From contig JAJYPA010000146.1 of the NCBI GenBank assembly GCA_021795795.1, positions 1 to 15,723 of the forward strand: a stretch of 15,723 bases of DNA, read 5' to 3'. Made by a program: the position numbers and the translations under genes. The notes under the pieces were generated by a model, which was given only the letters and a program-made list of their open reading frames with translations, searched no databases and was not told the origin of the DNA. Positions 1,019 through 15,723 of this stretch are shown piece after piece; positions within the stretch are counted from its first letter, which is position 1, and every line of letters starts with the position of its first letter. This DNA comes from Pseudomonadota bacterium (GTDB taxonomy: Bacteria > Pseudomonadota > Gammaproteobacteria > Halothiobacillales > Halothiobacillaceae).

Positions 1019-1051
1019 TCCCCGCGCAAACCTTCCCGCTCTTCGTCAACC

Positions 1052-1156: not shown

Positions 1157-1170
1157 AACGGAAAACCATT

Positions 1171-1936: not shown

Positions 1937-2022
1937 GGTTCACCGCACTCGGCAAGAAATCCCGGCGGCAAGCGGCAGGCCGCGAAGCGCTGGAACAAGA
2001 ACGGGCATGGCGTGTCGCTCAT
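1933..2022 (-). CDS. 29-codon small ORF between the hybrid remnant and FkbM
   Basis: An ATG at 2022 follows GGAG by six bases, better than the ribosome site of the FkbM gene itself. It opens a frame of 29 residues beginning MSDTPCPFLFQRF and ending LAECGEP. Its stop overlaps the FkbM start as ATGA, and its start lies one base after the stop of the hybrid remnant upstream. I do not recognise the peptide. It may be the surviving 5' end of a deleted gene or simply a short leader that feeds ribosomes into FkbM. Placement and spacing support translation; function is unknown. Confidence 0.4.
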   Translation of the reverse strand: MSDTPCPFLFQRFAACRLPPGFLAECGEP

Positions 2023-2023
2023 C

Positions 2024-2332
2024 TCATTCTCCTCGCGCTGACCTGGCGTCCCGGTGCCGGGCAATGACCTTCTCGTACTCGGCCGTCAACTGGCTGGCCA
2101 CCACATCCCAGGTCCACTGGCGCTGTACCAGCGCGCCCGGCCGAACGATCACCCCGCATCCGATCCGCGCGCCGAACAGACGCAGCAACCAACAGCGCCA
2201 TCCGTAGAGGAACTGTGGAGAGGAGCGGAACAGCAGCGCGTCAACCAGCCACCAAGGCTGTACGAACCACGCTGGGCGGCCGTGGAAATCTGGGGGCAAC
2301 TTGAACCGACTCAGATCTTGCCAATCGCTCAT
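2024..2332 (-). pseudogene. Hybrid remnant: WcaF-like acetyltransferase N-terminus joined to a glycosyltransferase C-terminus
   Basis: The frame begins at ATG 2332, overlapping the upstream glycosyltransferase stop as ATGA; a GTG at 2338 is possible but less likely. The first 60 or so residues (FKLPPDFHGRPAWFVQPWWL, SSPQFLYGWRCWLLRLFGARIG, GVIVRPG) match the N-terminus of WcaF-type putative colanic acid acetyltransferases, which normally continue with left-handed beta-helix hexapeptide repeats to about 180-200 residues. Here the sequence switches after 'RPG' to 'ALVQRQWTWDVVASQLTAEY', which reads like the last helix of a GT4 glycosyltransferase, and stops about 30 residues later. The likeliest reading is a deletion that fused the 5' end of an acetyltransferase gene to the 3' end of a neighbouring glycosyltransferase gene. 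No catalytic part of either enzyme remains. Confidence 0.7.
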
Positions 2333-3525: not shown

Positions 3526-4496
3526 CAAGAGTCGCTGGTGCCAGTCGACAACACTACTTCCTGATTTCTGACAAACCAGTCCCACGTAGATTTCAGCCCC
3601 TCTCTAAGATCAACCGACGGCCGAAAGCCAAGTACCCGAGCGGCCTTTTCATAAGAAGCAAAATTGCGCGCCACTTCGCCCTGTCTGGCCGGCCTGAACT
3701 CTATTGGATGGTTCGGTTTTCCAGCAATTTCTCTAAGCATTTTAGCCAACTGCAGAATGGATGTCTCCCGCCCGCTGGCCAAATGAAACACCTCACCACC
3801 ACTAATATCTGCGTCCAGAGCGAGCGCAATGCCAGAACATAAGTCATCGACATGGATGTAATCACGCGACGCAGATCCATCTCCATAGATCACGATTGGC
3901 TCATCAGTCATCAACGCCTTGATAAATACCGTAACCGCGCCCTTCTTGTGCGCACTGTGAGGGCCATACACATTACCGAACCGCAAGCAAACAGTGTTTA
4001 TATCGTATGATTTCGCGAATGCGTGACAATAAGCTTCTCCACACAGCTTGCTGGCCCCATACGGAGAAATCGGTCTTGGCAAAGACAGCTCGTTAACAGG
4101 AGGGATGGCGTCGCCAATCAACGCTCCACCTGTCGAAGCAAAAATAAATTTGCGAACCCCAGCCTCAACCGAGGCCTGCAACACATTAAGCGTGCCTTGC
4201 ACATTGACTGAAAAGTTTGCAGCCGGATCAGAGATCGACTCAATCACCGACCCATAGGCGGCAAGATGCACAACCTTATCAGCATCCAGAAGACCGCTAC
4301 TCAGGCATGTCCGATCCAGCACATCACAACGATAGATCTTAACCGAAGAACCACTGTCGCGACCTGTCGGGGATGAACGGCTCAGATTGTCAAGAACTCT
4401 CAGATTGCTGTTGTGCTCACCCAACAATTTCACCAAGTTGACTCCGACAAAGCCAAGCCCGCCGGAGACAGAAATACCACTTTCTGCGAAAATCAT
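3525..4496 (-). CDS. NAD-dependent sugar-nucleotide epimerase/dehydratase (GalE-like)
   Basis: A 323-residue extended short-chain dehydrogenase of the kind that epimerises UDP- or GDP-sugars. The NAD-binding loop is SGGLGFVGVNLVKLL, with glycines at 12, 15 and 18. Catalytic residues are S121/T122 in FASTGGALIGD and the YxxxK pair Y146/K150 in SPYGASK. The RFGNVYGP and SRDYIHVDDL blocks are typical of UDP-hexose 4-epimerases. The start is firmly placed by GGGAGG five bases upstream of the ATG. The N-terminus (MIFAESGISVSGG) is slightly long and has S in place of the usual T before the glycine loop. It probably makes a precursor sugar for the repeat unit. It could be a UDP-GlcNAc/Glc 4-epimerase or a related enzyme; exact specificity is not resolvable here. 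Confidence 0.9.
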   Translation of the reverse strand: MIFAESGISVSGGLGFVGVNLVKLLGEHNSNLRVLDNLSRSSPTGRDSGSSVKIYRCDVLDRTCLSSGLLDADKVVHLAAYGSVIESISDPAANFSVNVQGTLNVLQASVEAGVRKFIFASTGGALIGDAIPPVNELSLPRPISPYGASKLCGEAYCHAFAKSYDINTVCLRFGNVYGPHSAHKKGAVTVFIKALMTDEPIVIYGDGSASRDYIHVDDLCSGIALALDADISGGEVFHLASGRETSILQLAKMLREIAGKPNHPIEFRPARQGEVARNFASYEKAARVLGFRPSVDLREGLKSTWDWFVRNQEVVLSTGTSDS

Positions 4497-4507
4497 ACAA
4501 GCCTCCC
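4491..4507 (-). promoter_or_regulatory. Strong ribosome binding site for the epimerase gene
   Basis: GGGAGG stands five bases before the ATG at 4496. It is one of the clearest Shine-Dalgarno matches in the window and fits a gene that is not translationally coupled to the frame upstream. Confidence 0.7.
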
Positions 4508-4542
4508 ATTACGAATCACACAACGCAAGCGGGAATACGGAA

Positions 4543-4869
4543 CTATTTTCTTAACGTATCGTTTACGCCAAAGAGCGGACGCTTCCGCTCCTTGGCCCCA
4601 GTTCCTTTATAATGCAAACTGCGTGCACCAAAGCCTTGCTCGCTGATGGCCATGCTTGATGCCGCGACATAAGTGCTCCACAACTGATCACCAGTTTCGT
4701 CAGTTATTTTCGCCGAACCGCGAGCAACAATCTCGTGCTTGCCTCCATAAGTGAAGGTCGCCGAGACCGATCCTGCCATTAAAGGCGCCATAACAATTGT
4801 GAACCCAGAGGCCACTTTCTGTCCATCATTTCTATTGATTCTAACAATGCCAGAAGTTTTACTTAGCAC
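4543..4869 (-). CDS. Hypothetical protein or gene fragment, 108 codons
   Basis: An open frame of up to 108 residues with a GTG start at 4869 and no convincing ribosome site. The sequence includes GFTIVMAPLMAGSVSATFTY and a basic C-terminus (GTGAKERKRPLFG). I do not recognise it. Its first codons overlap the scar where a glycosyltransferase N-terminus breaks off (about 4880), so it may be the 3' part of another gene brought in by the same rearrangement. Base composition is AT-richer than the flanks and like the neighbouring epimerase. It is either a real small gene, a fragment, or a chance frame in about 430 bp of otherwise gene-free DNA. Confidence 0.3.
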   Translation of the reverse strand: MLSKTSGIVRINRNDGQKVASGFTIVMAPLMAGSVSATFTYGGKHEIVARGSAKITDETGDQLWSTYVAASSMAISEQGFGARSLHYKGTGAKERKRPLFGVNDTLRK

Positions 4870-4924
4870 GACCGCGGACTATGTAGGGCGAGGGAATGTT
4901 CCAGTAGACGACGAAGGAGCGCAC
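4859..4924 (-). pseudogene. Truncated glycosyltransferase N-terminus (relic A)
   Basis: Just after the methyltransferase stop, a GTG at 4924, with GGAG nine bases upstream, opens a frame reading VRSFVVYWNIPSPYIV before homology ends near 4880 and a stop follows at 4861. The motif matches the start of the intact GT4 glycosyltransferase of this cluster (MLATFVVYWNNIPSPYMVER). The DNA also aligns well with 7608-7640. This is the first 16 or so codons of a related glycosyltransferase whose remainder has been lost or replaced. Confidence 0.75.
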
Positions 4925-4927
4925 GCG

Positions 4928-5554
4928 CTACTTCTCCGCCCAAAGCATGATGTTTCCGGAAAGAAATTCGCGTACGGGCCAGATCGCTCCCCATCGATCC
5001 AGCAGATGACGCGCCCTTCCACCTCGGGAAAGATCAACAAGCGCGCTACTTTCGACCCGGACAAATCCTGCCTGACCGAAGATCTCCCGCAGGTCTCTGT
5101 GGGTAAAGTAGTGGATATGGCCATCATCCCAAGCCCCATCCAGAGTGTTCCCACCAGCGGTTTGGGGCCCGTAGCCAGAAAACACCAGGCGGGCAATATT
5201 CTTCAGATAGCGGATGTTTGGCGTGGTGACGACGCAGCGCCCTCCGGGGCGAAGAATGCGATGAATTTCCTGGCTGAATTTGACCGGATCGAAGATGTGC
5301 TCGATTACCTGATTAGCAATGACTGCATCGGCAGAAGTAGCCGCCAGCGGGAACAGGCTATTCAGGTCCGCTTCGTGGAACTCCCAGCCATCCGTTTTGC
5401 CGTCCCCCAGAGTATCCAGGCGCGTTCTAGACACGTCTAGACCAATGCGCTGATCAAATCGTTCGGCTAGCGCGTTCAGCAATTGGCCGGAGCCGCAGCC
5501 GAGATCGACAACGCAGGACCCCGTGCCGATAATGGCCGCCATCTTTGGTTCCAT
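4928..5554 (-). CDS. Class I SAM-dependent methyltransferase (methyltransferase 11/23 type)
   Basis: A 208-residue protein with SAM motif I in VVDLGCGSGQLLNALAE, the acidic loop GLDVSRTRLD, motif II-III around ADAVIANQVIEHIFDP, and motif IV-V in ILRPGGRCVVTTPNIRYLKN. This architecture is common in polysaccharide clusters, where such enzymes methylate sugars or lipid-linked intermediates. I place the start at ATG 5554 because AAGGAG lies exactly six bases upstream; an in-frame ATG at 5572 and a TTG at 5575 are less supported. Upstream is a glycosyltransferase relic, and four bases downstream begins another. The enzyme therefore stands between two broken partners, and its present acceptor is uncertain. 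Confidence 0.88.
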   Translation of the reverse strand: MEPKMAAIIGTGSCVVDLGCGSGQLLNALAERFDQRIGLDVSRTRLDTLGDGKTDGWEFHEADLNSLFPLAATSADAVIANQVIEHIFDPVKFSQEIHRILRPGGRCVVTTPNIRYLKNIARLVFSGYGPQTAGGNTLDGAWDDGHIHYFTHRDLREIFGQAGFVRVESSALVDLSRGGRARHLLDRWGAIWPVREFLSGNIMLWAEK

Positions 5555-5576
5555 CACAAACTCCTTTGCCATCAAA

Positions 5577-5609
5577 ATAGAAGCTCAGAGACTCCATAGA
5601 AGCTCAGAG
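5577..5609. repeat. 14-bp tandem-like direct repeat
   Basis: ATAGAAGCTCAGAG occurs at 5577-5590 and again at 5596-5609, just upstream of the methyltransferase gene. It may be a slippage product; no function is evident. Confidence 0.6.
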
Positions 5610-5672
5610 GCCCCCGTCTCTTCTTTGACGCCAGCACCCACAGTGCAGCATATGTGTGAAATGTAGACAAAT

Positions 5673-5726
5673 CCGTTCCTCGTAGGGTGATGGAATGTTG
5701 TTCTAGTAGATTGCCAATTGGCGCAT
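5673..5726 (-). pseudogene. Decayed glycosyltransferase N-terminus (relic B) with an in-frame nonsense codon
   Basis: From ATG 5726 the minus strand reads MRQLAIY, then TAG (5705-5703), then NNIPSPYEER. The intact glycosyltransferase reads MLATFVVYWNNIPSPYMVER at the same place, so the TAG replaces the TGG tryptophan codon. DNA similarity to 7608-7640 is visible over about 35 bases. After codon 18 similarity is lost. This is the start of a dead glycosyltransferase gene, just upstream of a methyltransferase gene. Confidence 0.7.
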
Positions 5727-5763
5727 TAGCGCCCCATGCGCTTTGTCTTCGAGGCCTCAGATT

Positions 5764-5880
5764 TCACCTACAGTCCACATGATCAGACGCGCTGTCTGGA
5801 GCCGCTGATACAACGCTGAGGATGGCCGCACATACAACGTATTGCCTGTTATCGAGTATGTGTCCAAGTGTATAGGTCAT
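5764..5880 (-). CDS. Possible 38-codon small ORF after the methyltransferase
   Basis: An ATG at 5880 overlaps the stop of the preceding methyltransferase as ATGA and opens 38 codons (MTYTLGHILDNRQYVV at the N-terminus). The overlap would allow coupled translation, but I recognise no family and such overlaps arise by chance. It lies in the roughly 300-bp gap 5576-5876, whose only other content is relic B and a short direct repeat. Confidence 0.2.
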   Translation of the reverse strand: MTYTLGHILDNRQYVVCAAILSVVSAAPDSASDHVDCR

Positions 5881-6521
5881 ATGCGTTTGCACTCGACTCC
5901 AAGTGAATTTTCCCATCTCTCCCAACGTTCTACTTCAAGAAATTTTGGCTCTGCCGAATCTCCGAATGCGGCGGGCCTGATATGCATAAATTCCGCTTTT
6001 TTGAGTTCTACCTCAATGGATGGGTAATCCCACATCCAGCGATGCCTCGAATTTCCTAATATCTCTCTTGCCAAACCCTTTATCCCACGGTTTCTTTGCT
6101 GTTCTCCCAGCCCAGAGGAACGCATGAAATCCAGCGCGGCCGTGGGCAAGTTGGCGCCTTGATACTCGCGAATATAGAAAGCCAAATCAGGCAGCACAAG
6201 GCGAAAGATACCGCCCGATTTAAGAATCGTCCTTGTATTACAAAGTGCAATTCTGAAATCGCTCAGGGAAAGATGCTCCAATACGTGGGAGCAATATATG
6301 CCGCGGCAACTCTGCTCCGCGATTGGAAGCCCTCTGACAATGTCGCCGTATCGCACATTGTCGGGGAAAGGCGCTGCATTTCGCTTCATCAGCGCAGACA
6401 GCGCCATGCCAACTACGGAAATTCGTTCCATACGGAGGGTCGGGGACGCATCAAAGTTCAGCCAGCCGTCTGGAGCGTCCCACCCGCACCCGTACTGCAC
6501 ATAAAGCCCTTCCGCCTTCAT
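5877..6521 (-). CDS. Class I SAM-dependent methyltransferase
   Basis: A 214-residue protein starting at ATG 6521, which overlaps the stop of the upstream glycosyltransferase as ATGA; a longer frame to 6593 lies inside that gene and is rejected. Motif I is YVQYGCGWDAPDGWLNFDAS, the usual opening of a methyltransferase group often found next to glycosyltransferases. CSHVLEHLSLSDFRIAL and ILKSGGIFRLVLPDLAFYI follow as motifs for the post-I region and the strand 4-5 loop. The C-terminal half, with an RWMWD segment, is more variable. The direct coupling to the GT4 gene suggests the pair acts together, one adding and the other capping or modifying a sugar. The acceptor is unknown. Confidence 0.88.
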   Translation of the reverse strand: MKAEGLYVQYGCGWDAPDGWLNFDASPTLRMERISVVGMALSALMKRNAAPFPDNVRYGDIVRGLPIAEQSCRGIYCSHVLEHLSLSDFRIALCNTRTILKSGGIFRLVLPDLAFYIREYQGANLPTAALDFMRSSGLGEQQRNRGIKGLAREILGNSRHRWMWDYPSIEVELKKAEFMHIRPAAFGDSAEPKFLEVERWERWENSLGVECKRI

Positions 6522-7651
6522 CGCCTTCCTGCCTTTAATAAGTGATTCACGATCCCCTCGAAATCCGCAGCCCATTGCTCCGGCGTGTGGCACTGGATCT
6601 TCTGCGCCGAAACCGCCCCCATGCGTACGCGCAGTGCGGCGTCCTCTGCCAGTGTGCGCATGGCGCCGGCCAGCGCGGCGCTGTCCTCGGGCGGCACGAT
6701 GTAGCCGTTGCTACCTTCCTCGATGCGGACACGGATCTCACCGGCAGCGGATGTGGAAATTACCGGCAAGCCGCAGGCCATGGCCTCGTCCACCACCAGT
6801 CCATAGGGGTCGCCCAGGGTGGGGAAGACGAACACATCCGCCAGCGAGTAGAAGCGCGGCAGGTCGAGCTTCTGCCGGAAGCCGGCGAACACCACATTGC
6901 GGATGCCACGTTCGGCGCAAATTCGCTTGAGTTTACCTTCCTCCGGACCGTCTCCCACCAGCAGCAGGCTGACCGGCTCGGCGCTCTGGCGCTGCACGGC
7001 TTCGAACGCCTCCAGCAGATAGTTGATGCCCTTGCCCCACCACAGCCGGCCGACGTAGACGAAGGTGGTGCCCTCCAGCCCGAGTTCGCGGCGAAGCGCT
7101 CCGCGCCCTGGCCGCGCGGCATCAGCTCCAGACTGGTAATGCAGCACATCGATAACATGAGGCGCGAAGAAGATTTTCTCAGTATCAACTCCATATTTCT
7201 CGGCGAATCTCCGGCCATCGTCGCCCACCGTCACAACAGCGTCGATCCTGGGAAACAGCCATCGCTTGATCGCCTCTTTGATCGGCGTGCGCTTCACCCA
7301 GCGATCGAATGTCACCTCCGCCCAAAACCCTGTCTTCGCGCCGCGCAGCTTAGCGAGCAGCCAGCCCGCGATGAACACCGGCTCGGCGTAGAGACTGACC
7401 AGCACATCGGGCCGGCGCCCGAACACCGGCAAGGGCCAGTGCAGCATGCGCGTGCCGATGCGGGTCGACGGAAGATATCGGTACTTGAAGCGCCACGTGG
7501 ATTCATCCACATCCCAACTGCGGCCTGATTCGATACGGTCATTGAACCAAGCCTCGAACTCGAACGCACCGCGATCAGCGAGCGCATTGAAGCGCTCGAC
7601 CATGTAGGGCGAGGGGATGTTATTCCAGTACACAACAAATGTCGCAAGCAT
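6518..7651 (-). CDS. GT4 family glycosyltransferase
   Basis: A 377-residue GT-B glycosyltransferase. The start at ATG 7651 gives MLATFVVYWNNIPSPYMVER, the motif also preserved in two broken copies downstream; the 22 extra codons upstream overlap the glycanase 3' end and are not family-like. The donor domain has FVYVGRLWWGKGINYLLEAF (about 197-216), LLLVGDGPEEGKLK and DPYGLVVDEAMACGLPVIST. In the EX7E position the first acidic residue is Asp281 rather than Glu, with Glu289 as the second. It would add one sugar to the lipid-linked unit at the inner membrane. No good Shine-Dalgarno is visible in the 25-base gap after the glycanase stop. Its ATGA overlap with the methyltransferase indicates one operon. 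Confidence 0.92.
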   Translation of the reverse strand: MLATFVVYWNNIPSPYMVERFNALADRGAFEFEAWFNDRIESGRSWDVDESTWRFKYRYLPSTRIGTRMLHWPLPVFGRRPDVLVSLYAEPVFIAGWLLAKLRGAKTGFWAEVTFDRWVKRTPIKEAIKRWLFPRIDAVVTVGDDGRRFAEKYGVDTEKIFFAPHVIDVLHYQSGADAARPGRGALRRELGLEGTTFVYVGRLWWGKGINYLLEAFEAVQRQSAEPVSLLLVGDGPEEGKLKRICAERGIRNVVFAGFRQKLDLPRFYSLADVFVFPTLGDPYGLVVDEAMACGLPVISTSAAGEIRVRIEEGSNGYIVPPEDSAALAGAMRTLAEDAALRVRMGAVSAQKIQCHTPEQWAADFEGIVNHLLKAGRR

Positions 7652-7676
7652 ATGTTTAACAAAACACCAAGTTGAG

Positions 7677-8669
7677 TCAGTGCAGCAAATTTGATTTGGC
7701 TGAATGCTGAAAAACATGCACCGAGCGCACGGTCATTGGTTCGCCTATACCTGTACCAAGGATCAGTACTAAATGCTGGCGATCGAGTACGCAATATGCT
7801 GACTGAGATGTTACAATTGAACTACCCGCCTTCGAGCACATGCTCCAGTTGATACGCTTGCCGACAGGCTTGTTATCAAAGTAGAACTGCGCGTAACCAG
7901 TGCGCTTAGCGGTGGCCGGAACCCAAAGGAATCCGTAGCTATGAAACAGGTTCCAGTTGGTGTCTCGCGGTACGTACATTACAGGCGACGATGTGCTGAT
8001 GTCACACCATCCGTGGCGACATGTCTTCTTCCATACGCCAAACCAGTTATGTAACGTACCGCCGTAAACATTATTCACATGCAAGTATCGCGACATGTCA
8101 TATTCAAAGAAATCGGCCTCCATAAAATCCGAGCTGCCATGTTCGCTCTTTTTCTTGAAGCCATCATAGTTTGCGAGGTTTTCGATCGCCATTGACCAAA
8201 AGGACGGATGACCGATGTAATGAGCGGCCTTAACGTCTGCAGGGCTGAACTTCAAACTGGCTTCGATATATGCACCGCCGCCGAATGCGCGGCCGACGAA
8301 GTCATTTGGTCCATTGATTCGTGCAGCCGTTGCAATTTGACCATTCGGCCCAGTGTGCCCTCCAAGTAGAGTGAGTGTGTGGTCAGCGTTGAACTTGAGT
8401 TCGGATGGCTGTGCAAGTTGCCCGAAAAAATTCCACGTATACCATTTAAAACCAGTTTGTGGCTTAACGGCAATGCCGACAGATGCTCTGCTGAAGTGAC
8501 TTGTGAATGTAAGGTCGTCATACCCCACCGCTCTTGCCTGACTGGGAACACTAATCGGCGCGGCCACGACGATTATTGGCGTTGAGATGAACAACAAAAA
8601 CATGACACTGACAGGCAGCCGAATAAATCGGCGGAACTTTAAAAAAAAGCCAACCCATATTGTGTTCAT
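7677..8669 (-). CDS. Secreted GH16-family glycoside hydrolase
   Basis: A 330-residue protein with an N-terminal export signal (basic KFRRFIRLP followed by a hydrophobic run and an AAP/SQA cleavage region near residue 37-45). The rest is a concanavalin-A-like beta-jelly-roll: GGGAYIEASLKFSP (about 130-143), HPSFWSMA, the catalytic motif EADFFE (E184, D186, E189, matching the GH16 pattern ExDxxE), FHSYGFLWVPA (242-252) and AQFYFDNKPVG. GH16 enzymes cleave beta-linked glucans, galactans and related polymers. Inside a Wzx/Wzy locus such an enzyme usually trims the polymer in the periplasm or frees chains at the surface. Its ATG overlaps the polymerase stop (ATGA). Family assignment is good; the bond cleaved is unknown. 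Confidence 0.82.
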   Translation of the reverse strand: MNTIWVGFFLKFRRFIRLPVSVMFLLFISTPIIVVAAPISVPSQARAVGYDDLTFTSHFSRASVGIAVKPQTGFKWYTWNFFGQLAQPSELKFNADHTLTLLGGHTGPNGQIATAARINGPNDFVGRAFGGGAYIEASLKFSPADVKAAHYIGHPSFWSMAIENLANYDGFKKKSEHGSSDFMEADFFEYDMSRYLHVNNVYGGTLHNWFGVWKKTCRHGWCDISTSSPVMYVPRDTNWNLFHSYGFLWVPATAKRTGYAQFYFDNKPVGKRINWSMCSKAGSSIVTSQSAYCVLDRQHLVLILGTGIGEPMTVRSVHVFQHSAKSNLLH

Positions 8670-9985
8670 TGCACTTTGCCTCTGGAAAAATGAGCAGTCG
8701 GTTCTGATTCGATCAAGTCTGCGCGGCGCAGCAAAATGACAAACAGTGCCAAAATGGAAAATGGATTTCCAAATCCAAATAAATAGCGATCGAAAAAATT
8801 GTTGACCAACAGGACGATAATTATCACAATCAGAAACAATGCGCGCGTCTTCACATCATTACTGCTGTGCCGCAAAAATTGCCGCGAGCTGAACGACAAC
8901 AGCCAAAACATTTGGCCAACGACATATAAAATCCCAATCAAGCCTGACTCATACCACAACGTAAGATAGCCGTTATCAACGCTGAAACCAAGTTCAATTC
9001 CCGATGTACGGTAACCGGATCCAAATAGCCAAGTTCCACTTCTTTCCAATGCATTTAAGGTGGTCTCCCAACGCTCGGTACGACCTGAAAAGCCGCTCCC
9101 GAACCCGCGATACCGCGAATTCAATTGCAAGAAATCTGAAATATATTTTACTGCATTTTCCAATAAGCTAATTCGCAAGACGATTAGTGTTGTAATTCCA
9201 AATATAAATATCGCCAAGGAAGTAATCAGTAAACGCTTACTTGCACGACCTCTTGCGAACAAAGCAGCAGCATAGATCATGACAGCATAAGCGCAGCCTA
9301 GAAATAGCGCCAGCATTGATGCCCGCGAAGATGCGACAAATATCGTAGCAGCGCCGCCCAGTACGGCGAGTATGTATAACGCCCTTGAAATTATATTCCT
9401 GTCCGCAATGAAAATTGTCAATATCATTGCCGCCACGAATCCTGCGAAGATGAAACCAATTGCATTCGGTTGCGCGCTAGCAGGGATGAACCTGCTTGCA
9501 CTGATTGCAGCTCTCAGGATTTGTTTCAACGACATGGCCATGAATATGACAATGCAAATAAGACCTGCGCGCGCGAATGCCATGGCAATCTTTTGAAATG
9601 ATAAAATTGCCAATAAGACCTGCGTGGCACACAGCACTGCAGTCATCAGCAGTGTATACAGTAGCGCATACCACATATTATTGAGCGCTGCGATCATGGT
9701 TGGCAGCACAGGCACTACAAATGCCAGCAGCAAAAAACGCCATCTTCTTAACGCCGCAATTATGCGCGCCACACCCTTTGCTGGGGCCGACATGAGTGTA
9801 ATGACGGCCAGAGTAATCAGCGAGACTGGTCCAATCAGCAGCATTTTCGTATTTACTGTCGTTACATACGGCAAGAACGAAAGTATGAAAACGCCGGAGA
9901 GCAGAATGCTCACGAAATCGTCTTTACGCACAAGCAGTCGCCGGCTCATACGTTCGCCGACTTGGTGCAAAATGAATTCGGGCAT
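8666..9985 (-). CDS. Wzy-type polysaccharide polymerase / O-antigen ligase family membrane protein
   Basis: A 439-residue, very hydrophobic protein with about ten to twelve predicted membrane spans. The signature of the Wzy_C/O-antigen ligase family is visible: VASSRASMLAL (about 218-228), SGRTERWE (300-307) in a long periplasmic loop, and SVDNGYLTLWYESGLIG (335-351). It would join lipid-linked repeat units in the periplasm. Next to a flippase gene, a polymerase role is more likely than a WaaL-type ligase role, but the family covers both. I use ATG 9985, four bases after the flippase stop; an in-frame ATG at 9949 is an alternative. Codon and base composition are AT-richer than in the flippase upstream. 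Confidence 0.85.
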   Translation of the reverse strand: MPEFILHQVGERMSRRLLVRKDDFVSILLSGVFILSFLPYVTTVNTKMLLIGPVSLITLAVITLMSAPAKGVARIIAALRRWRFLLLAFVVPVLPTMIAALNNMWYALLYTLLMTAVLCATQVLLAILSFQKIAMAFARAGLICIVIFMAMSLKQILRAAISASRFIPASAQPNAIGFIFAGFVAAMILTIFIADRNIISRALYILAVLGGAATIFVASSRASMLALFLGCAYAVMIYAAALFARGRASKRLLITSLAIFIFGITTLIVLRISLLENAVKYISDFLQLNSRYRGFGSGFSGRTERWETTLNALERSGTWLFGSGYRTSGIELGFSVDNGYLTLWYESGLIGILYVVGQMFWLLSFSSRQFLRHSSNDVKTRALFLIVIIIVLLVNNFFDRYLFGFGNPFSILALFVILLRRADLIESEPTAHFSRGKVQ

Positions 9986-9989
9986 ATGC

Positions 9990-11417
9990 TCACAGTGGGC
10001 TTGCCCAGAATGAAAGCCGGCGTCGGACTCCGACAGAGTACCCGGCGTAACAAGCGATAAGACTTGCTGATGTTGCCAATGCCGCGCCTGAGGCCCCCAT
10101 TTGCGGAATCAGCGCGAAATTGAGGATTACATTGAGGGCCGCAGCCGCGCTGATGGAACGTGCTGCCGCACGCTCGCCCCCGGTCATGATCAGAGCTTCG
10201 CGTGCAGGCCCAGCGATGGCAACCAGAACCCAGGCGGAGGACAGGATCGCAAGCGGTATCGCCCCTGCTTGATACGCTGCGCCGAAAGCAATTTTCAGAA
10301 TGTCGTGGCCGGCACCGATTAATATAGCAGCCGCGAATGCAGCGGCAGCAAACATGACTTGCGCCGTTCGCTTGCAAACCCGCTTGAAGCGCGCCATATC
10401 GCCCGCTGCATACAGCTTCGCCAATGTAGGCTGAAGCGCAATGCTGCTGATAACTGACACAAAGGCGACCAGCTCTGCGCCGCGCGCCGCCACCTGATAT
10501 ATGCCGGCCTCGGCGGGGCCTTTGATGGCCGCCAGCATGATCACATCAGTCTGTGTTGTGATAACGCTCATTGCGCCAACCCATAGCAGCGGGCCAGCGG
10601 CCATGGCCCATTCCCGCATCCGGTGCTCCTGTTCTGCAACGCGCAGCGCAGCCGGAAGCCGTGCAAGCAGAATCAACGCGCCAACGACAAATGCCGCCGC
10701 ATAGGCCAACAGACGCAGGCCTACGGCAAGCTCTGCGGTGAGAACACTCGATGTCAGGTGTACCACGCCAATGCCAAGCAGAAAGACCATCGGCATCACC
10801 AGCGTTTCCGGCATCAAGCCCAGCACGACATGGTGCAGGCCGCGCAACGCCGCCATGCGCAGTGCGCCCAGCAAGGTGAGCGGCAACAGGGCAAACGTCA
10901 TCCATATCAAAGGAGTGCTGTAGCCACCCGGGAAGACGTGCAGCACTTGCAACACCAGCAGCAGCAAGCCGAGCAACACTGACACGACCAGCACCGCCTG
11001 ATTGGCACGCACCAGCAAGCCTTTCGCCAGGCCCCACTGCGCATGCACGCGGTATGCAGCCACTTGGCGAACGATGAGATTCGGCAGGCCCAATGATGCC
11101 GGAACGCCAATCAAGGTTACCAAGGCAACTGCCGCCGCATAGACCCCATATCGAGCAGGCCCCATCAGCCGCGCCAGTACGATGCTAAGCAACAACATCA
11201 GTATCTTCGCAACAAGGCTCAACACGAAAACACCCGACATGCCCAACGCAAGTTGGCGTCGAAGGCCATCGATGGGCCCTAACAGGCGTTGCAAAGTAAT
11301 ACGCGGAGCACGCGCAGGCTGCAGGGTTGAATCAACTGCAACCCGCACGTTTTGAGACATTACGACGGAACACGTGCGTTTGCTTGCGTCGTCATCGTCA
11401 TCATCCGACGTACTCAT
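9990..11417 (-). CDS. Wzx-type polysaccharide flippase (MOP superfamily)
   Basis: A 475-residue membrane protein with about twelve hydrophobic segments from residue 60 on. The opening GVFVLSLVAKILMLLLSIVL, ARLMGPARYGVYAAAVALVT and SLGLPNLIVRQVA are typical of polysaccharide transporters of the RfbX/Wzx family, which flip undecaprenyl-linked repeat units across the inner membrane. Before the first span is a soluble tail of about 55 residues with an unusual run of six aspartates (MSTSDDDDDDASK), coded by a mixture of GAT and GAC. The start at 11417 follows the SqdB stop by one base; a second ATG at 11360 would give a shorter tail. It partners the polymerase directly downstream. Confidence 0.9.
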   Translation of the reverse strand: MSTSDDDDDDASKRTCSVVMSQNVRVAVDSTLQPARAPRITLQRLLGPIDGLRRQLALGMSGVFVLSLVAKILMLLLSIVLARLMGPARYGVYAAAVALVTLIGVPASLGLPNLIVRQVAAYRVHAQWGLAKGLLVRANQAVLVVSVLLGLLLLVLQVLHVFPGGYSTPLIWMTFALLPLTLLGALRMAALRGLHHVVLGLMPETLVMPMVFLLGIGVVHLTSSVLTAELAVGLRLLAYAAAFVVGALILLARLPAALRVAEQEHRMREWAMAAGPLLWVGAMSVITTQTDVIMLAAIKGPAEAGIYQVAARGAELVAFVSVISSIALQPTLAKLYAAGDMARFKRVCKRTAQVMFAAAAFAAAILIGAGHDILKIAFGAAYQAGAIPLAILSSAWVLVAIAGPAREALIMTGGERAAARSISAAAALNVILNFALIPQMGASGAALATSASLIACYAGYSVGVRRRLSFWASPL

Positions 11418-11418
11418 T

Positions 11419-12633
11419 TCACATCTCTGGGGCCGCAGCGGAATGACTTAATGTCGCGTTATGGCCTATTTCACGACGCCACAGCGACACACACGGGATC
11501 TTGTCGCGATTACAACGGTGCGCGTACCTGCGTGCAATTTCGGCGATTTCGTGCATCAGGCCCTCACCCAGCGTGATCGGATCCAGCCCCAGATGCAGGA
11601 AGCGATCGTTGGCCACATACAGTTCGTTCTCGTCAGCTTCGTTGCGCGGGTTGACCAGGTTTTCTATTTTCGCGCCTGTCATGTCGGCGATCATCTTGGC
11701 CAATTCGCGCACACGATGGGTCTCGGTCATCTGGTTGTAGATATGCACGCGATCGCCACGCGCAGGCGGGTTTTCAATCGCCAGTTCAATGCACTTGACG
11801 GTGTCCTGGATGTGGATGAAGGCGCGCGTCTGGCCGCCGGTGCCGTGCACGGTGAGGGGGTAATCCACCGCCGCCTGCATGAGAAAGCGGTTGAGCACGG
11901 TGCCGTAATCGCCGTCGTAGTCGAAGCGGTTGATCAGACGCTCGTCAAGTCGCGTTTGCGCCGTTTGCGTGCCCCAGACGATGCCTTGATGCAGGTCAGT
12001 CACGCGCACTTTGTCGTTCTTGTTGTAAAAATAAAACAGCAACTGATCCTGGGTCTTGGTCATGTGATAAATGCTGCCGGGGTTAGCCGGATACAGGATC
12101 TCGTTTTCGACCAGCGTACCGTCATCCACCTCCACCTTGACCTTGAGGTAACCCTCGGGGATCTTCATGCCGGCGGTGCCGTAACCGTACACGCCCATGG
12201 TGCCCAGGTGTGCAATGTGGATGTCCAGCCCGCTTTCCACCACCGCCGCCAGAAGGTTGTTGGTGGCATTGAGGTTGTTGCTGACGGTGTAACGCTTGTG
12301 CCAACTGCTCTTCATCGAGTACGGCGCGGCGCGCTGCTCGGCAAAATGCACCACCGCATGCGGCTGCCACGCCAGGAGCAGATCCAGCAGACGCTGGTAG
12401 TTCACGGCCACGTCGAAGTTGTGAAAACCGATGTCCTTGCCGGAAATTTGCTTCCACGCGAGCAGGCGCTCGCCCATCGGGCGGATCGGTGTCAGCGAAT
12501 CGCACTCCAACTCGATGTCGATGCAGCGCCGCGAAAGGTTGTCGACGATGGCCACTTCGTGGCCCTGCGCAGAAAGATGCAGCGCCGTAGGCCACCCGCA
12601 GAAACCGTCACCACCGAGTATGAGAATTTTCAT
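11419..12633 (-). CDS. sqdB: UDP-sulfoquinovose synthase
   Basis: A 404-residue protein of the SqdB/SQD1 family, which converts UDP-glucose and sulfite to UDP-sulfoquinovose (EC 3.13.1.1) in the cytoplasm. The N-terminus MKILILGGDGFCGWPTALHL is almost diagnostic, as are VDNLSRRCIDIELECDSLTPI and VVHFAEQRAAPYSM. Catalytic residues fit the family: T145 in LGTMGVYGYG and the YxxxK pair Y189/K193 in SIYHMTK. HQGIVWGTQT and RAFIHIQDTV are further conserved blocks. About 30 extra residues follow the usual end. AAAGGAG lies six bases before the ATG. It is the first gene of the polysaccharide series. No SqdX/SqdD sulfolipid glycosyltransferase is recognisable nearby, so the product more likely feeds a polysaccharide than the lipid SQDG. 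Confidence 0.94.
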   Translation of the reverse strand: MKILILGGDGFCGWPTALHLSAQGHEVAIVDNLSRRCIDIELECDSLTPIRPMGERLLAWKQISGKDIGFHNFDVAVNYQRLLDLLLAWQPHAVVHFAEQRAAPYSMKSSWHKRYTVSNNLNATNNLLAAVVESGLDIHIAHLGTMGVYGYGTAGMKIPEGYLKVKVEVDDGTLVENEILYPANPGSIYHMTKTQDQLLFYFYNKNDKVRVTDLHQGIVWGTQTAQTRLDERLINRFDYDGDYGTVLNRFLMQAAVDYPLTVHGTGGQTRAFIHIQDTVKCIELAIENPPARGDRVHIYNQMTETHRVRELAKMIADMTGAKIENLVNPRNEADENELYVANDRFLHLGLDPITLGEGLMHEIAEIARRYAHRCNRDKIPCVSLWRREIGHNATLSHSAAAPEM

Positions 12634-12639
12634 GGCTTA

Positions 12640-12646
12640 CTCCTTT
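12640..12646 (-). promoter_or_regulatory. Ribosome binding site of sqdB
   Basis: AAAGGAG, six bases upstream of the ATG at 12633. It fixes the start of the first gene of the series. I could not identify a convincing -35/-10 promoter in 12640-12860. Confidence 0.75.
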
Positions 12647-12683
12647 GCGCCGGTCAAAGCCAGCAACGTGAAATGGTGAAAGT

Positions 12684-12863
12684 TCAAACAACGAAAGGGA
12701 CAGCCAACTGCGTTGGCCTCGAGTCATGTGCCGCTGCCCGTGAGAGAAGGAGCGAAGCGTTGACAAGAGAAGATGCAGGCCGGGCAGTCACGTGCACGTG
12801 CGCGCCAAATTCCTCAGCTACAGCAGTGCGGATGATCACGGCTTGTTCGGGGCCTAGGCGCAT
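12684..12863 (-). pseudogene. MNT nucleotidyltransferase 5' remnant
   Basis: From ATG 12863 the frame begins MRLGPEQAVIIRTAVAEEFG, the usual opening of small MNT-type nucleotidyltransferases (commonly MRLTxEQxxxIRxxxxExFG...VWLFGSR). Similarity ends after AHVHV, directly before where the GS motif should be. The remaining 34 codons are unrelated and run to a stop at 12684. No catalytic residue remains. The start region resembles the remnant at 15074, including the DNA GGCTTGTTCGG and AGGCGCATGG. It marks a third MNT locus in the island and lies between the last repeat block and sqdB. Confidence 0.6.
12703..12717. promoter_or_regulatory. Perfect 6-bp inverted repeat upstream of sqdB
   Basis: GCCAAC-TGC-GTTGGC, about 70 bases upstream of the sqdB start. 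It could be an operator or a weak hairpin. There is no poly-T, and evidence for function is limited to symmetry and position. Confidence 0.25.
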
Positions 12864-12893
12864 GGTCTGTTCAATGGACTGCTGAGTGAGGCT

Positions 12894-13053
12894 GAGATCC
12901 TTCGCTGCGCTCAGGATGACAACAATTCCGGCTGCGGCTGATGGGCATGGTGCCTGGATGACCAGCTTCGCTGTTGGTAAAGCGCCTCCCGTCCCCGACA
13001 CAGACGCTCGGGGATGACGTTCCTGCGCGGGGATGACGAGACAAAAGCGCGGG
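12894..13053. repeat. 160-bp repeat, copy 1
   Basis: Identical to 13458-13617 except for two bases. It contains half of a GAGATCCTTCG..CTCAGGATGAC palindrome, an imperfect ACCAGC..GTTGGT hairpin, and a perfect TCCCCGA/TCGGGGA inverted repeat (12992-12998 and 13008-13014). It ends in GGATGACGAGACAAAAGCGCG. No gene is contained. Confidence 0.9.
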
Positions 13054-13069
13054 ATGACCGTTTTCAGTT

Positions 13070-13157
13070 GTCATGCTGAGGCCGACGGCCGAAGCATCTC
13101 GCCTTGGGGCGTGGCGATGGGGCGAAGAGCGAGATCCTTCGCTGCGCTCAGGATGAC
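13070..13157. repeat. 88-bp palindromic repeat, copy 1
   Basis: The left arm GTCATGCTGAGGCC..GAAGCATCTCGC pairs imperfectly with the right arm GCGAGATCCTTCGCTGCG..GATGAC around a G-rich loop. It belongs to the same family as the units at 993-1196. Translated by chance, it gives the peptide CHPERSEGSR. Confidence 0.9.
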
Positions 13158-13168
13158 AGCCCTTAATT

Positions 13169-13256
13169 GTCATGCTGAGGCCGACGGCCGAAGCATCTCG
13201 CCTTGGGGCGTGGCGATGGCGCGAACAGCGAGATCCTTCGCTGCGCTCAGGATGAC
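13169..13256. repeat. 88-bp palindromic repeat, copy 2
   Basis: Tandem to copy 1 with an 11-base spacer and nearly identical; the loop differs slightly. Confidence 0.9.
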
Positions 13257-13297
13257 AGGGAACCTGGGGTGCGATGCGGCTGCATGTCAACTCGAAC

Positions 13298-13364
13298 GTC
13301 ATTCCCGCGAAGGCGGGAATCCAGTGACACTTGCGGACTGGATCCCCGCCTGCGCGGGGATGAC
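13298..13364. repeat. ATTCCCGCGAAGGCGGGAAT-type palindromic element
   Basis: GTCATTCCCGCGAAGGCGGG opens the element, and GGATCCCCGCCTGCGCGGGG followed by ATGAC closes it. It is thus two head-to-head hairpins with GTCAT/ATGAC ends. Similar sequences are widespread intergenic repeats of proteobacteria. Confidence 0.85.
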
Positions 13365-13396
13365 GAGACAAAAGCGCGGAGTGACAGCCTTCAGTT

Positions 13397-13484
13397 GTCA
13401 TGCTGAGGCCAACGGCCGAAGCATCTCGCCTTGGGGTGTGTTGGTGATGCGAAAAGCGAGATCCTTCGCTGCGCTCAGGATGAC
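13397..13484. repeat. 88-bp palindromic repeat, copy 3
   Basis: Same structure as 13070-13157, with small changes (AACGGCC for GACGGCC, and a GTGTTGGTGATG loop). It lies inside the 236-bp repeat. Confidence 0.88.
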
Positions 13485-13617
13485 GACAATTCCGGCTGCG
13501 GCTGATGGGCATGGTGTCTGGATGACCAGCTTCGCTGTTGGTAAAGCGCCTCCCGTCCCCGACACAGACGCTCGGGGATGACGTTCCTGCGCGGGGATGA
13601 CGAGACAAAAGCGCGGG
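13458..13617. repeat. 160-bp repeat, copy 2
   Basis: Differs from 12894-13053 at two positions only. It lies 22 bases from the stop of the HepT gene and carries the TCCCCGA/TCGGGGA inverted repeat at 13556-13562 and 13572-13578. Confidence 0.9.
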
Positions 13618-13639
13618 GCGACGGGCCATTTGCGGGTTG

Positions 13640-14053
13640 TCATTGGGCATGACGCATGGCCTCCAGCGCGAACGATCCAAAATCATCCAGATGCCGATGC
13701 ACGATGCGATGCACGATCTGCCAGTCGATGGCGCGGTAGCTGTGTACGGCCACGTTGCGAAAGCCGACCGCGCTGCGCAGGCGTTGCGCAAGCCCGGCGT
13801 CGAGCACGCCCGCGTCGGCGAGGCGCGCGAAGGCTTCACCCATGGTTTGCGGCGCGGGCAGTCCGCTGGCGGCGATCCAGTGCGCTGCGATGTCCACGCA
13901 CAATTGCACGGCTCGCGTCAGGTTCACGGCGATGATGTCTTGCGCATCGATGTCACGCACGAGGTCCTCGGCAAGTGGCGGGCACTTGTCGTGGATGCGC
14001 TGCGTGCACTGCCGCAGCGATTCGACTTTCTGCTCGATCAGCGCCCGATCCAT
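13640..14053 (-). CDS. hepT: HepT-like HEPN-domain ribonuclease toxin
   Basis: A 137-residue, mostly helical protein from ATG 14053. Near the C-terminus it has RNVAVHSY (residues 99-106), which is the HEPN motif Rx4H (R99, H104) plus the downstream tyrosine Y106. In described HepT toxins this Tyr is the site adenylylated by the MntA antitoxin. HEPN proteins of this type cleave RNA. The preceding helix NLTRAVQLCVDIAAHWI is the usual dimer helix. The gene overlaps the 3' end of the MNT gene by 16 bases, as expected of a co-translated pair. A longer frame upstream is rejected because it lies within the MNT gene. The stop is followed within about 25 bases by repeats. Confidence 0.88.
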   Translation of the reverse strand: MDRALIEQKVESLRQCTQRIHDKCPPLAEDLVRDIDAQDIIAVNLTRAVQLCVDIAAHWIAASGLPAPQTMGEAFARLADAGVLDAGLAQRLRSAVGFRNVAVHSYRAIDWQIVHRIVHRHLDDFGSFALEAMRHAQ

Positions 14054-14457
14054 CGTTGCCTCCGCGCGTCGAGGATGCGTTGCTGCAAGGGCACGAAGTC
14101 GGCCACATCGGTCAGGTGGCGGCTGAGCAGCGCGCCGTGCCTGATGCTGTCGCCCAGCACGCGCACGCCGTGGGCGAGGATTTGCCCGAGCAGCGGCTCG
14201 CCGGCGTCGGCCAGGTCGATCAGGTCCACTGGGCGGCCGGTGGCCGTGGCCAGATCGCTGATCAAGGCGATGATCTCGTCGGCGTGCAGGGGGCGATCGG
14301 CGCCCACCGCCAGATCGAGGTCGCTGTCGGGCCGCGCCGTGCCGCGCGCCAGCGATCCGAACAGCATGGCGAAGTTGACCTGCGGGTGCCGCGCCAGCAC
14401 GGCGCGCAGTTGGCTGGCCAGCGGCTCGGGCGCGATGGGGTTGGGCTGCGCGGTCAT
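14038..14457 (-). CDS. mntA: MntA-like nucleotidyltransferase antitoxin
   Basis: A 139-residue minimal nucleotidyltransferase. The active site reads FGSLARGTARPDSDLDLAV, the exact GS-x10-DxD pattern (G34, S35, D46, D48), with a third acidic residue around D78 in RPVDLIDLAD. In MntA/HepT systems this enzyme transfers AMP to a tyrosine of HepT and silences it. All catalytic residues are present, so the pair looks functional. The start at ATG 14457 has only a weak ribosome site. The gene precedes and overlaps hepT. It is not similar at its N-terminus to the two truncated MNT relics in the same island (MRLxxEQ type), so at least two MNT lineages are mixed here. Confidence 0.88.
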   Translation of the reverse strand: MTAQPNPIAPEPLASQLRAVLARHPQVNFAMLFGSLARGTARPDSDLDLAVGADRPLHADEIIALISDLATATGRPVDLIDLADAGEPLLGQILAHGVRVLGDSIRHGALLSRHLTDVADFVPLQQRILDARRQRWIGR

Positions 14458-14550
14458 GTTCGCAGCTCGATCCCGCTTGCGTGGGCGATAAGCACGATGG
14501 CGCGGGTGTCACCGGGGTGCTGGATGTAGCGGATGCATGTCAACTCGAAC

Positions 14551-14617
14551 GTCATTCCCGCGAAGGCGGGAATCCAGCGACACTTGCGGACTGGATCCCC
14601 GCATGCGCGGGGATGAC
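14551..14617. repeat. ATTCCCGCGAAGGCGGGAAT-type palindromic element, copy 2
   Basis: Same as 13298-13364 with two base changes (CAGCGACAC and CGCATGCGC). Confidence 0.85.
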
Positions 14618-14649
14618 GAGACAAAAGCGCGGGATGACAGCCTTCAGTT

Positions 14650-14737
14650 GTCATGCTGAGGCCGACGGCCGAAGCATCTCGGCGTGGGGTGTGGCGATGA
14701 CGCAAAGAGCGAGATCCTTCGCTGCGCTCAGGATGAC
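14650..14737. repeat. 88-bp palindromic repeat, copy 4
   Basis: Arms as in 13070-13157; the loop reads GGCGTGGGGTGTGGCGATGA. Confidence 0.88.
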
Positions 14738-14829
14738 AACAATTCCGGCTGCGGCTGATGGGCATGGTGCCTGGATCCCCGCCTGCGCGGGGATGACGAG
14801 ACAAAAGCGCGGGATGACCGTTTTCAGTT

Positions 14830-14917
14830 GTCATGCTGAGGCCGACGGCCGAAGCATCTCGCCTTGGGGCGTGGCGATGGTGCGAAGAGCGGGATCCTTC
14901 GCTGCGCTCAGGATGAC
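14830..14917. repeat. 88-bp palindromic repeat, copy 5
   Basis: Arms as in 13070-13157, with one change in the right arm (GGGATCC for GAGATCC). Confidence 0.88.
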
Positions 14918-15036
14918 AACAATTCCGGCTGCGGCTGACGGGCATGGTGTCTGGATAACCAGCTTCGCTGTTGGTAAAGCGCCTCCCGTCCCCGACACAG
15001 ACGCTCGGGGATGACGTTCCTGCGCAAGGATGACGA
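14891..15036. repeat. 160-bp repeat, diverged copy 3
   Basis: Follows the pattern of 12894-13053 with several changes (TGACGGGC, GGATAACC, GCGCAAGG). It keeps the TCCCCGA/TCGGGGA inverted repeat at 14989-14995 and 15005-15011. It ends against the MNT remnant at about 15040. Confidence 0.85.
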
Positions 15037-15041
15037 GGCAG

Positions 15042-15074
15042 GAGCATGGCGGCTTGTTCGGTGGTGAGGCGCAT
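15042..15074 (-). pseudogene. MNT nucleotidyltransferase start cut off by repeats
   Basis: Thirty-five bases after the HEPN stop, ATG 15074 opens MRLTTEQAAML, a typical start of MNT-type nucleotidyltransferases. It then runs straight into the GGATGACGAG end of the repeat block. Only about 11 codons survive. The frame continues through the repeats as a nonsense peptide. Confidence 0.5.
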
Positions 15075-15109
15075 GGGGTCAGTGGGCGGTGTCGTGACGG
15101 TTGAGCAGA

Positions 15110-15589
15110 TCATGGCGCGGCGTCGGGCAGCAGCCGCTGCGCCTGCAGGCGTTGTCGCCAATCCAGGTACAGCGTACGCAGCGATTGCGCGGCCTGGATG
15201 GCTGCCAGCAGCGCTGCGTAACGCAATTCGGGCTGGTCCGGATATTCGTGGGCAAGCCGATTGCGCACGTCGCGCCAGGCCAGCCAGCAATCCACATCGA
15301 CGAAGCCGAGCTTTTCCAGCCGGTTGAGGCGATCGCGCATGCTCATGGCTTCTCCGGGCTCGGCCAGCGCATCGAGCGTGGCCGGCACGAGGCGTTCGCC
15401 CATCACATCCTGCAGCTTGATGAAGCGAAACAGCAGTTGATCCACCAGGCGTACCTTGCCGCGGTCACTCTCCAGGGCCGGCAAATCGGGCGCCGGCTGG
15501 CGATGCCAGTCCGCCAGTGACTCGCCGAGCACATGGGCGTGCTGGTCGGCTTCCCAGGCAGCGGCGGCTAGCCGGTCGCGCGCGATCAT
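15110..15589 (-). CDS. HEPN-domain protein, putative HepT-like toxin
   Basis: A 159-residue helical protein. It has WRDVRNRLAHEYPDQPELRY, which contains the HEPN motif Rx4H (R109, H114) followed by Y116. The same layout occurs in the second HEPN protein of the window (RNVAVHSY), but the rest of the two proteins is different, so this is another subfamily. The FRFIKLQDVMGERL helix with the preceding LVDQLLF resembles nucleotidyltransferase-partner HEPN proteins. The start ATG overlaps the stop of the upstream MNT gene (ATGA). It is probably an RNase toxin kept in check by that partner. Confidence in the HEPN fold is good; activity is inferred. Confidence 0.8.
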   Translation of the reverse strand: MIARDRLAAAAWEADQHAHVLGESLADWHRQPAPDLPALESDRGKVRLVDQLLFRFIKLQDVMGERLVPATLDALAEPGEAMSMRDRLNRLEKLGFVDVDCWLAWRDVRNRLAHEYPDQPELRYAALLAAIQAAQSLRTLYLDWRQRLQAQRLLPDAAP

Positions 15590-15723
15590 GCGTCCACCAG
15601 CTGGATGCCGTGGTGCCGCGCTGCGGCCACCACGGGGAGTGAGTCGGGCTCGCCGCGCACGGTGATCACCATGTCGATGCGTTGCTCGCCGAGACCGCGG
15701 TACAGGCGTGCGGCATAACGTGT
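15586..15723 (-). CDS. C-terminal end of a nucleotidyltransferase, 5' part outside window
   Basis: The last 45 codons of a frame entering from the right edge, ending at TGA 15586, which overlaps the HEPN start. It includes YRGLGEQRIDMVITVRG, where RIDMVI fits the third strand of MNT domains carrying the third acidic residue, and it ends HHGIQLVDA like many MNT C-termini. The GS-x10-DxD site would lie beyond the window. Its position immediately before a HEPN gene, with an ATGA overlap, supports the call. Confidence 0.6.
   Translation of the reverse strand, partial: TRYAARLYRGLGEQRIDMVITVRGEPDSLPVVAAARHHGIQLVDA

Follow-up and report, generated by a model that had tools for sequence, protein, structure and literature searches.

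A contig from a Pseudomonadota bacterium of the Halothiobacillaceae (JAJYPA010000146.1 of assembly GCA_021795795.1, whose positions 1 to 15,723 constitute the window throughout this report) carries an sqdB gene, encoding a predicted uridine diphosphate (UDP)-sulfoquinovose synthase, at the head of a polysaccharide gene series, and this cluster most likely makes a Wzx/Wzy polysaccharide that contains sulfoquinovose. The sugar is known mainly from archaeal glycans and as the head group of the sulfolipid sulfoquinovosyl diacylglycerol (SQDG). What the sequences show is the enzyme family with its catalytic residues, the order of the genes, the recurrence of SqdB near Wzx and the absence of an adjacent gene of SQDG-synthase type from the loci of its clade; that the enzyme is active, how the sugar reaches the polymer and what each transferase does are predicted.

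All recognised genes between position 12633 and the left contig end lie on the minus strand. The first, sqdB (11419-12633), is separated by one base from wzx (9990-11417), which encodes a polysaccharide flippase (PF01943, 50.7 bits against a cut-off of 28.2) with 50% identity to the SqdB-adjacent Wzx of another locus, L006 (G, L and P numbers denote our genomes, loci and proteins). Downstream follow wzy (8666-9985), for a protein of O-antigen polymerase/ligase type (PF04932, 39.7 bits against a cut-off of 31.7, in a family that includes O-antigen ligases too), a gene for a GH16-like and probably exported glycanase (7677-8669), and then glycosyltransferases and methyltransferases. The glycanase has the GH16 jelly-roll fold, and its residues E184, D186 and E189, invariant across 29 sequences, correspond to ExDxxE, which we take to be the GH16 catalytic motif. 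The initial annotation of this DNA had described the flippase gene one base from sqdB and the row of polymerase, glycanase, glycosyltransferase and methyltransferase genes, and both descriptions hold, the genes forming one co-directional run. It had also reported no recognisable SQDG synthase, and neither SqdD nor SqdX was recognised beside SqdB within the window; the same holds, within the window, for cysH and for sulfotransferase genes.

By family and catalytic residues, the 404-residue product of sqdB is predicted to be a UDP-sulfoquinovose synthase. Its nearest PDB entry is Arabidopsis SQD1 (E 6e-91, over residues 2-387). The earlier recognition of the enzyme by T145 and Y189/K193 holds, as the fingerprint of these synthases, [ST]MGxnYx3K (PMC8987622), is complete in it as T145 M146 G147 and Y189xxxK193. 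Likewise, alanine mutants of Agl3, the homologue that provides UDP-sulfoquinovose for the S-layer N-glycans of Sulfolobus acidocaldarius (PMC4388408, PMC8987622), were inactive at His95, Arg101, Met145, Tyr182 and Lys186 (PMC4388408), and the equivalent residues of the window SqdB, H96, R101, M146, Y189 and K193, are all retained. Fingerprint and essential residues are invariant or nearly so over 108 aligned rows, Thr145 and Met146 each occurring in 106. Identity reaches 62-63% with SqdD-linked SqdB and 44% with a cyanobacterial SqdB, and the closest named SqdB among the matches listed, at 97%, belongs to Metallibacterium scheffleri, an acid-tolerant bacterium from an acidic biofilm (PMC12843825). 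An AlphaFold model of SqdB (mean predicted local distance difference test score 45.7, from 11 closely related rows) was left unused.

The evidence that this enzyme belongs with a flippase comes from comparison with other genomes, for which the best 80 out of 578 confirmed stretches served as genome loci and genes were called by a home-made codon-bias score (for L165-L168 the context was read off longer pieces of DNA from those genomes). A quick IQ-TREE analysis of 108 rows places the window SqdB in a clade of 22 rows, here clade W, with a Shimodaira-Hasegawa-like approximate likelihood-ratio (SH-aLRT) support of 100; in a first tree, with another row set, the window clade held 26 rows (SH-aLRT 97). 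The 108 rows take only P0002 and P0010 from the searched proteins, and exclude viral rows, copies of 42-44% identity, L156, repeat copies of one locus, and L068, whose SqdB is cut at the contig start though Wzx and a GT4 adjoin it. Wzx lies within 5 kb of SqdB in 7 of 20 clade W loci against 3 of 86 outside (Fisher p 0.0003, uncorrected for kinship), where flanking DNA reaches 5 kb in both directions for 10 of the 20 and 56 of the 86. SqdX or SqdD lies within 3 kb in none of the 20 against 13 of 86, or 12 of 86 without L183, whose SqdX label is doubtful in that its protein does not group with the remaining SqdB-linked ones in a tree. The SqdX label is based on the GT4 adjoining cyanobacterial SqdB in L160, no family model naming SqdX, and the SqdD label (S. 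meliloti, Marinovum) on position directly after SqdB and a glycosyltransferase or glycogenin annotation, rather than on comparison with R. sphaeroides SqdD. Counts of Wzy were left out, the hidden Markov model (HMM) being so narrow that it missed L181, which Pfam detected.

The proximity of SqdB and Wzx far exceeds its expected frequency. Over 19 clade genomes, 28 genes in 74 Mb exceed the PF01943 cut-off, and seven of them lie within 5 kb of a clade SqdB where 0.08 would be expected (G001, G006, G012, G015, G019, G042 and G418), six downstream of SqdB on the same strand and one upstream (G001). Given that G012, G015 and G019 are near relatives, the proximity is found in five lineages and the window, the three Rubrobacter-type genomes being counted once. 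A blastp search with the window proteins against L001-L080 found Wzx in L001 and L006 only, and iterated HMMs gave more. Among 369 sampled gammaproteobacterial genomes, 15 hold SqdB at E<=1e-100, in 17 copies, of which 8 (7 without the doubtful L183) have an SqdX-labelled gene within 3 kb; the clade copies G042:C2, G418:C53 and G290:C48 have none within that distance and adjoin Wzx, Wzx and Wzy_C, respectively, the contigs of the last two stopping close to SqdB. Further, SqdB at E<=1e-40 occurs in 5 of 233 genomes of the family of Rhodanobacter DHG33 (G007), which marks it as an accessory trait.

Individual loci give the same association in fuller form. Salinisphaera hydrothermalis (G042) has an 83% identical SqdB in the order Wza-Wzc-SqdB-Wzx-GT4-GT_A-FkbM, beyond which come a transposase-type integrase, further GT4s, Gmd and, about 17 kb on, an initiating transferase; its second SqdB copy (74%) lies 1.5 kb from an SqdX-like GT4. 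Similarly, G418 has an 84% identical CysH::SqdB preceded by a NusG-like gene and followed, at the contig end, by the start of Wzx, and a second copy (67%) that adjoins an SqdX-like gene. Pfam confirmed the key neighbours of SqdB in L006 (Bac_transf-SqdB-Wzx), L001 (Wzc-Bac_transf-Wzx-CysH::SqdB), L181 (Wzy_C, adenosine 5'-phosphosulfate (APS) kinase, UDP-glucose dehydrogenase and SqdB), L158/L178, L019 and L064, and in L158 Wza and Wzc precede SqdB. L001 and L006 have an initiating transferase close to SqdB, and the G042 locus has one at a greater distance. Sulfotransferase-type genes were recognised near SqdB in L001 and L006 by Pfam and in L064 and L188 by our own models. Rhodanobacter DHG33 has its clade copy in the order ABC-SqdB-GT2-GT2-GLF-GT2 and a second SqdB (42%) in Wzc-UGD-CysH-PF02719-epimerase-SqdB-Wzx-Wzy_C-GT4, so that the pairing with Wzx recurs in a distant SqdB lineage.

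That the family comprises true UDP-sulfoquinovose synthases is supported by strong sequence evidence of another kind, namely the fusion of a CysH-type reductase of APS or 3'-phosphoadenosine 5'-phosphosulfate (PAPS) to the synthase. Such fusions, with an N-terminal PF01507, make up 42 of 120 homologues listed of 7997 above threshold (P0008, P0024, P0106 and 39 others); the motifs CCxxRK and GCxPC are present in 42 of 42 and a C-terminal ECG[IL]H in 35, and P0024 exceeds the cut-offs for both APS reductase (TIGR02055, 241.1 against 235.3) and PAPS reductase (PRK02090, 249.7 against 154). APS/PAPS reductase produces sulfite, the substrate consumed by SqdB, and the joining of a sulfite-making and a sulfite-using enzyme in one chain argues for true synthase function; it also makes sulfite channelling directly testable. 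Among the best 80 genome loci, three are fused (L001, L005 and L008) and eight have CysH within 2 kb (L032, L033, L038, L041, L053, L056, L069 and L080). Clade W has the fusion in 4 of 20 loci; outside it the fusion occurs in 0 of 86 and CysH within 2 kb in 11 of 86. In two genomes (L001; G418) the fusion itself adjoins Wzx. The records of the fusions P0027, P0030, P0093, P0106 and P0119 name APS/PAPS reductase only. In the fused locus L179, the 8-mer GGCGGTAG, which may occur by chance and which we take to be an ops-like core, lies at 2946 on the minus strand between a NusG-like gene and CysH::SqdB, with a second copy at 3990 on the plus strand.

Which enzyme would add the sugar can be narrowed to a candidate, though no more than that. 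GT_A (6518-7717; PF13692/PF00534), a GT4 glycosyltransferase whose match starts at residue 20, so that its true start probably lies near 7650, is the only glycosyltransferase of the window with a close homologue found in another SqdB locus, GT_A having been compared with 52 genomes and the other two, GT_B and GT_C, with the fetched loci only. That homologue, about 68-69% identical and 2.9 kb after SqdB in S. hydrothermalis, is found in 1 of the 52 genomes at E<=1e-60, and GT_A is the best candidate for adding sulfoquinovose. Relatives of Wzx and the GH16-like protein may also recur together. The paired proteins P0245/P0122 and P0247/P0127 have longest contigs of equal size (9740 and 17745), and the same is true of Wzx P0261 and SqdB P0062 (9823), which suggests, without proving, one shared contig for each pair.

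In the mechanism proposed, a cytosolic glycosyltransferase, with GT_A the foremost candidate, would insert sulfoquinovose into an undecaprenyl-linked repeat unit that the methyltransferases would modify, Wzx would flip and Wzy would polymerise, and the GH16-like enzyme, which is probably exported, would trim the polymer. Sulfite would be drawn from the general APS/PAPS reductase of the cell. The product would be an exopolysaccharide, capsule or O-antigen bearing a carbon-sulfur (C-S) bonded sulfonate, charged at low pH. The initial annotation had likewise placed sulfoquinovose in a Wzx/Wzy polymer rather than a lipid, and had proposed comparing gene order across related genomes; the recurrence of SqdB near Wzx in unrelated genomes, the 20 clade loci free of SqdX and SqdD within 3 kb, the split paralogues and the fusion or adjacency of CysH all lend that proposal support. 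With less assurance, we lean towards a broader reading, in which gammaproteobacteria and actinobacteria share an SqdB subfamily that no longer takes part in sulfolipid synthesis and is dedicated to surface glycans. It would often bring its own sulfite supply, as an APS reductase domain at the N-terminus of the same chain, and would feed Wzx-dependent assembly of C-sulfonated polymers, other lineages having been recruited in parallel. To the latter would belong the distant copy of Rhodanobacter DHG33 and the SqdB in polysaccharide loci of two genomes, one from Mariprofundus and one from a member of the Thiotrichaceae.

Several observations weigh against the polymer, as do some of the lipid-related matches considered further below. 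The recognised genes of the window include no initiating transferase, Wza or Wzc; the contig stops inside a glycosyltransferase gene. Glu147 of Agl3, which has a role in dehydration and whose E147A mutant is impaired but not dead (PMC4388408), is replaced by Val148 in the window SqdB; Val148 is present in 108 of 108 rows, and because SqdB adjoining SqdD also lacks the glutamate, Glu147 does not define the family, and Val148 was dropped as a sign of a changed reaction. The window SqdB scores 331 bits on NCBIfam NF041015 against a cut-off of 575, and since the SqdB of S. meliloti (332) and of a cyanobacterium (467) fall below as well, the cut-off does not discriminate and was dropped as a test of membership. 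The contrast in SqdX and SqdD neighbours is not significant on its own (Fisher p 0.12, with related rows). Thirteen of the 20 clade loci have no Wzx within 5 kb by our own models, which missed the partial Wzx of G418 and had 5 kb on both sides in 10 of the 20, and the Wzx genes near 3 of 86 other SqdB mean that the link is not exclusive to clade W. In G242 the clade SqdB (86% identity) sits among unrelated non-polysaccharide genes. In two loci of other Rhodanobacteraceae (L173, 5958-9714; L176, 11975-19046), it accompanies a GT2, an unassigned protein of 677-683 aa and a membrane protein of family PF03706, with a GDP-mannose dehydratase in L176 besides, a gene set that perhaps makes another sulfoquinovose glycoconjugate. 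Clade W is, by these contexts, not solely polymer-linked.

The alternative that survives best, though it is unlikely, is that SqdB serves SQDG through an unlinked SqdX or SqdD, its position in the cluster being incidental or its role dual. There is precedent in R. sphaeroides, where sqdB is required for SQDG (PMC11346425), and relatives outside clade W have SqdB with SqdX-like neighbours. Searches of 48 of the 80 genomes, extended by 4 for SqdD, SqdX and GT_A, found SqdD homologues in 3 of the 52, all of them outside clade W, and matches to cyanobacterial SqdX at E<=1e-30 in 37 of 52, including 13 of 17 clade genomes (G290 and G418 are not among the 52); the genome of the window itself might still make SQDG or hold an unlinked SqdX or SqdD. 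Most of the 13 clade-genome matches, however, are only 31-39% identical and need not be SQDG synthases. A quick tree of 18 unlinked matches with the SqdB-linked ones, some on very long branches, separates them further. One group (SH-aLRT 100) consists of ten SqdX-like proteins from Pseudomonadota that are linked to SqdB. Unlinked matches fall into a second group (98) for the Rhodanobacteraceae with a clade SqdB (G007, G182, G226 and G242) and into a third (94) for Prauserella-type and Nocardioides-type genomes, whereas the Rubrobacter-type matches cluster with cyanobacterial SqdX (99). Unlinked matches in the nearest relatives of the window therefore do not resemble SQDG synthases, and the Rubrobacter-type ones do; in the three such genomes with SqdB near Wzx, where the unlinked homologue is 49-50% identical, SqdB may serve both lipid and polymer. 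Adding this tree left the standing of the readings unchanged. Against this alternative stand the one-base sqdB-wzx junction, the recurrent proximity (7 of 28 PF01943 genes), the clade loci without SqdX or SqdD, and the coexistence in G042 and G418 of a clade copy with a separate SqdB near an SqdX-like gene.

It is also quite unlikely that the nucleotide sugar supplied to the polymer is a different sulfonated or dehydrated one, such as a 5,6-ene sugar or, with UDP-GlcNAc as the starting point, a sulfonated amino sugar. Agl3 yields UDP-Glc-5,6-ene when sulfite is absent (PMC4388408, PMC8987622), and the substrate specificity of the window SqdB is a prediction; the fusion and adjacency of CysH, however, indicate sulfite, and the active-site positions checked are identical in SqdD-linked SqdB. 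Finally, it is highly improbable that UDP-sulfoquinovose goes to a small glycolipid or protein glycan flipped by Wzx, with Wzy and the GH16-like protein belonging to another product, as the neighbours of SqdB in L173 and L176 and the N-glycan use of Agl3 (PMC8987622) might suggest, given the co-directional run of Wzy and GH16 genes in the window, Wza-Wzc-Wzx in L158 and Wzc-Wzx in L001.

Several known systems come close to the one proposed. With the SqdB/SQD1 of SQDG synthesis in plants, cyanobacteria and the sqdBDC systems of R. sphaeroides and S. meliloti, the window enzyme shares family and fingerprint; it differs in having a flippase and polymerase in place of an SqdX/SqdD-type neighbour, and in its own, partly CysH-fused clade. 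The archaeal Agl3, cited in the initial annotation as a precedent and borne out as such, shares the proposed use outside lipids, but serves a protein N-glycan rather than a Wzx/Wzy polymer, and carries Glu147 where the window has Val148. Sulfated capsules such as that of Vibrio sp. KMM 8419, an O-sulfated bacterial polysaccharide (PMC11641403), likewise pair anionic sulfur groups with a surface polysaccharide locus, yet their sulfate esters arise through PAPS and sulfotransferases, whereas a C-S sulfonate would arrive with the sugar. Wzx, Wzy, GT4s and modification enzymes are common to group 1 capsule and O-antigen loci, from which the window differs in being headed by the gene for a sulfonated-sugar precursor. 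A map of cyanobacterial exopolysaccharide potential includes UDP-sulfoquinovose synthase among its nucleotide-sugar enzymes (PMC12555021). No bacterial polysaccharide with sulfoquinovose was found in the open-access literature searched, which leaves most subscription journals outside and is not proof of absence.

The remainder of the cluster holds two methyltransferases (5877-6593, a weak PF08241 match of 26.4 bits against a cut-off of 21.2, and 4928-5575, PF13489/PF08241), an NAD-dependent sugar epimerase/dehydratase (3525-4496; PF01370, 183 bits), the GT4 glycosyltransferase GT_B (2329-3585; PF00534), a short WcaF-like acetyltransferase remnant of 104 aa with the N-terminal part only (2024-2338; PRK10502 positions 2-73 of 183, no Pfam match), an FkbM-type methyltransferase (1172-1936; PF05050, 79 bits) and the GT4 glycosyltransferase GT_C, truncated at the contig end (2-997; PF13579/PF13439/PF00534). 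The flanks have a G+C of 0.60-0.68 and the cluster one of 0.45-0.63, with a minimum of 0.45-0.49 over about 7500-10000, and a repeat family of about 35 nt (35-38 nt) at 960-1203 has inverted copies at 13124-14919 on the other side. This dip and these flanking repeats give the cassette the look of an acquired and perhaps mobile element. Repeats of 35-38 nt and 275 nt together span 960-1203 and 12774-15045, and a toxin-antitoxin pair of MntA/HepT type (a Polbeta nucleotidyltransferase and a HepT-like protein) lies upstream of the cluster at 13640-14457. SqdB homologues of 45-67% identity also occur on IMG/VR viral contigs (L081-L151, for example L104, L113 and L145), L104 and L145 carrying a phage-type ribonucleotide reductase and L104 also an exonuclease and PhoH, with an FkbM-labelled open reading frame in 26 of 71 IMG/VR loci; large phages may modify glycans with the sulfonated sugar, though no match was found among INPHARED phages.

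More broadly, the recurrence of this arrangement in related bacteria points to sulfonated surface polymers as a product of some bacteria. If so, bacterial polysaccharides would be a further source of organosulfonate for sulfoglycolytic bacteria, and the polymers would add a new, permanently charged class of biopolymer that would be of use at low pH or against metals. Annotation that equates every sqdB with sulfolipid would, by the same token, call for caution.

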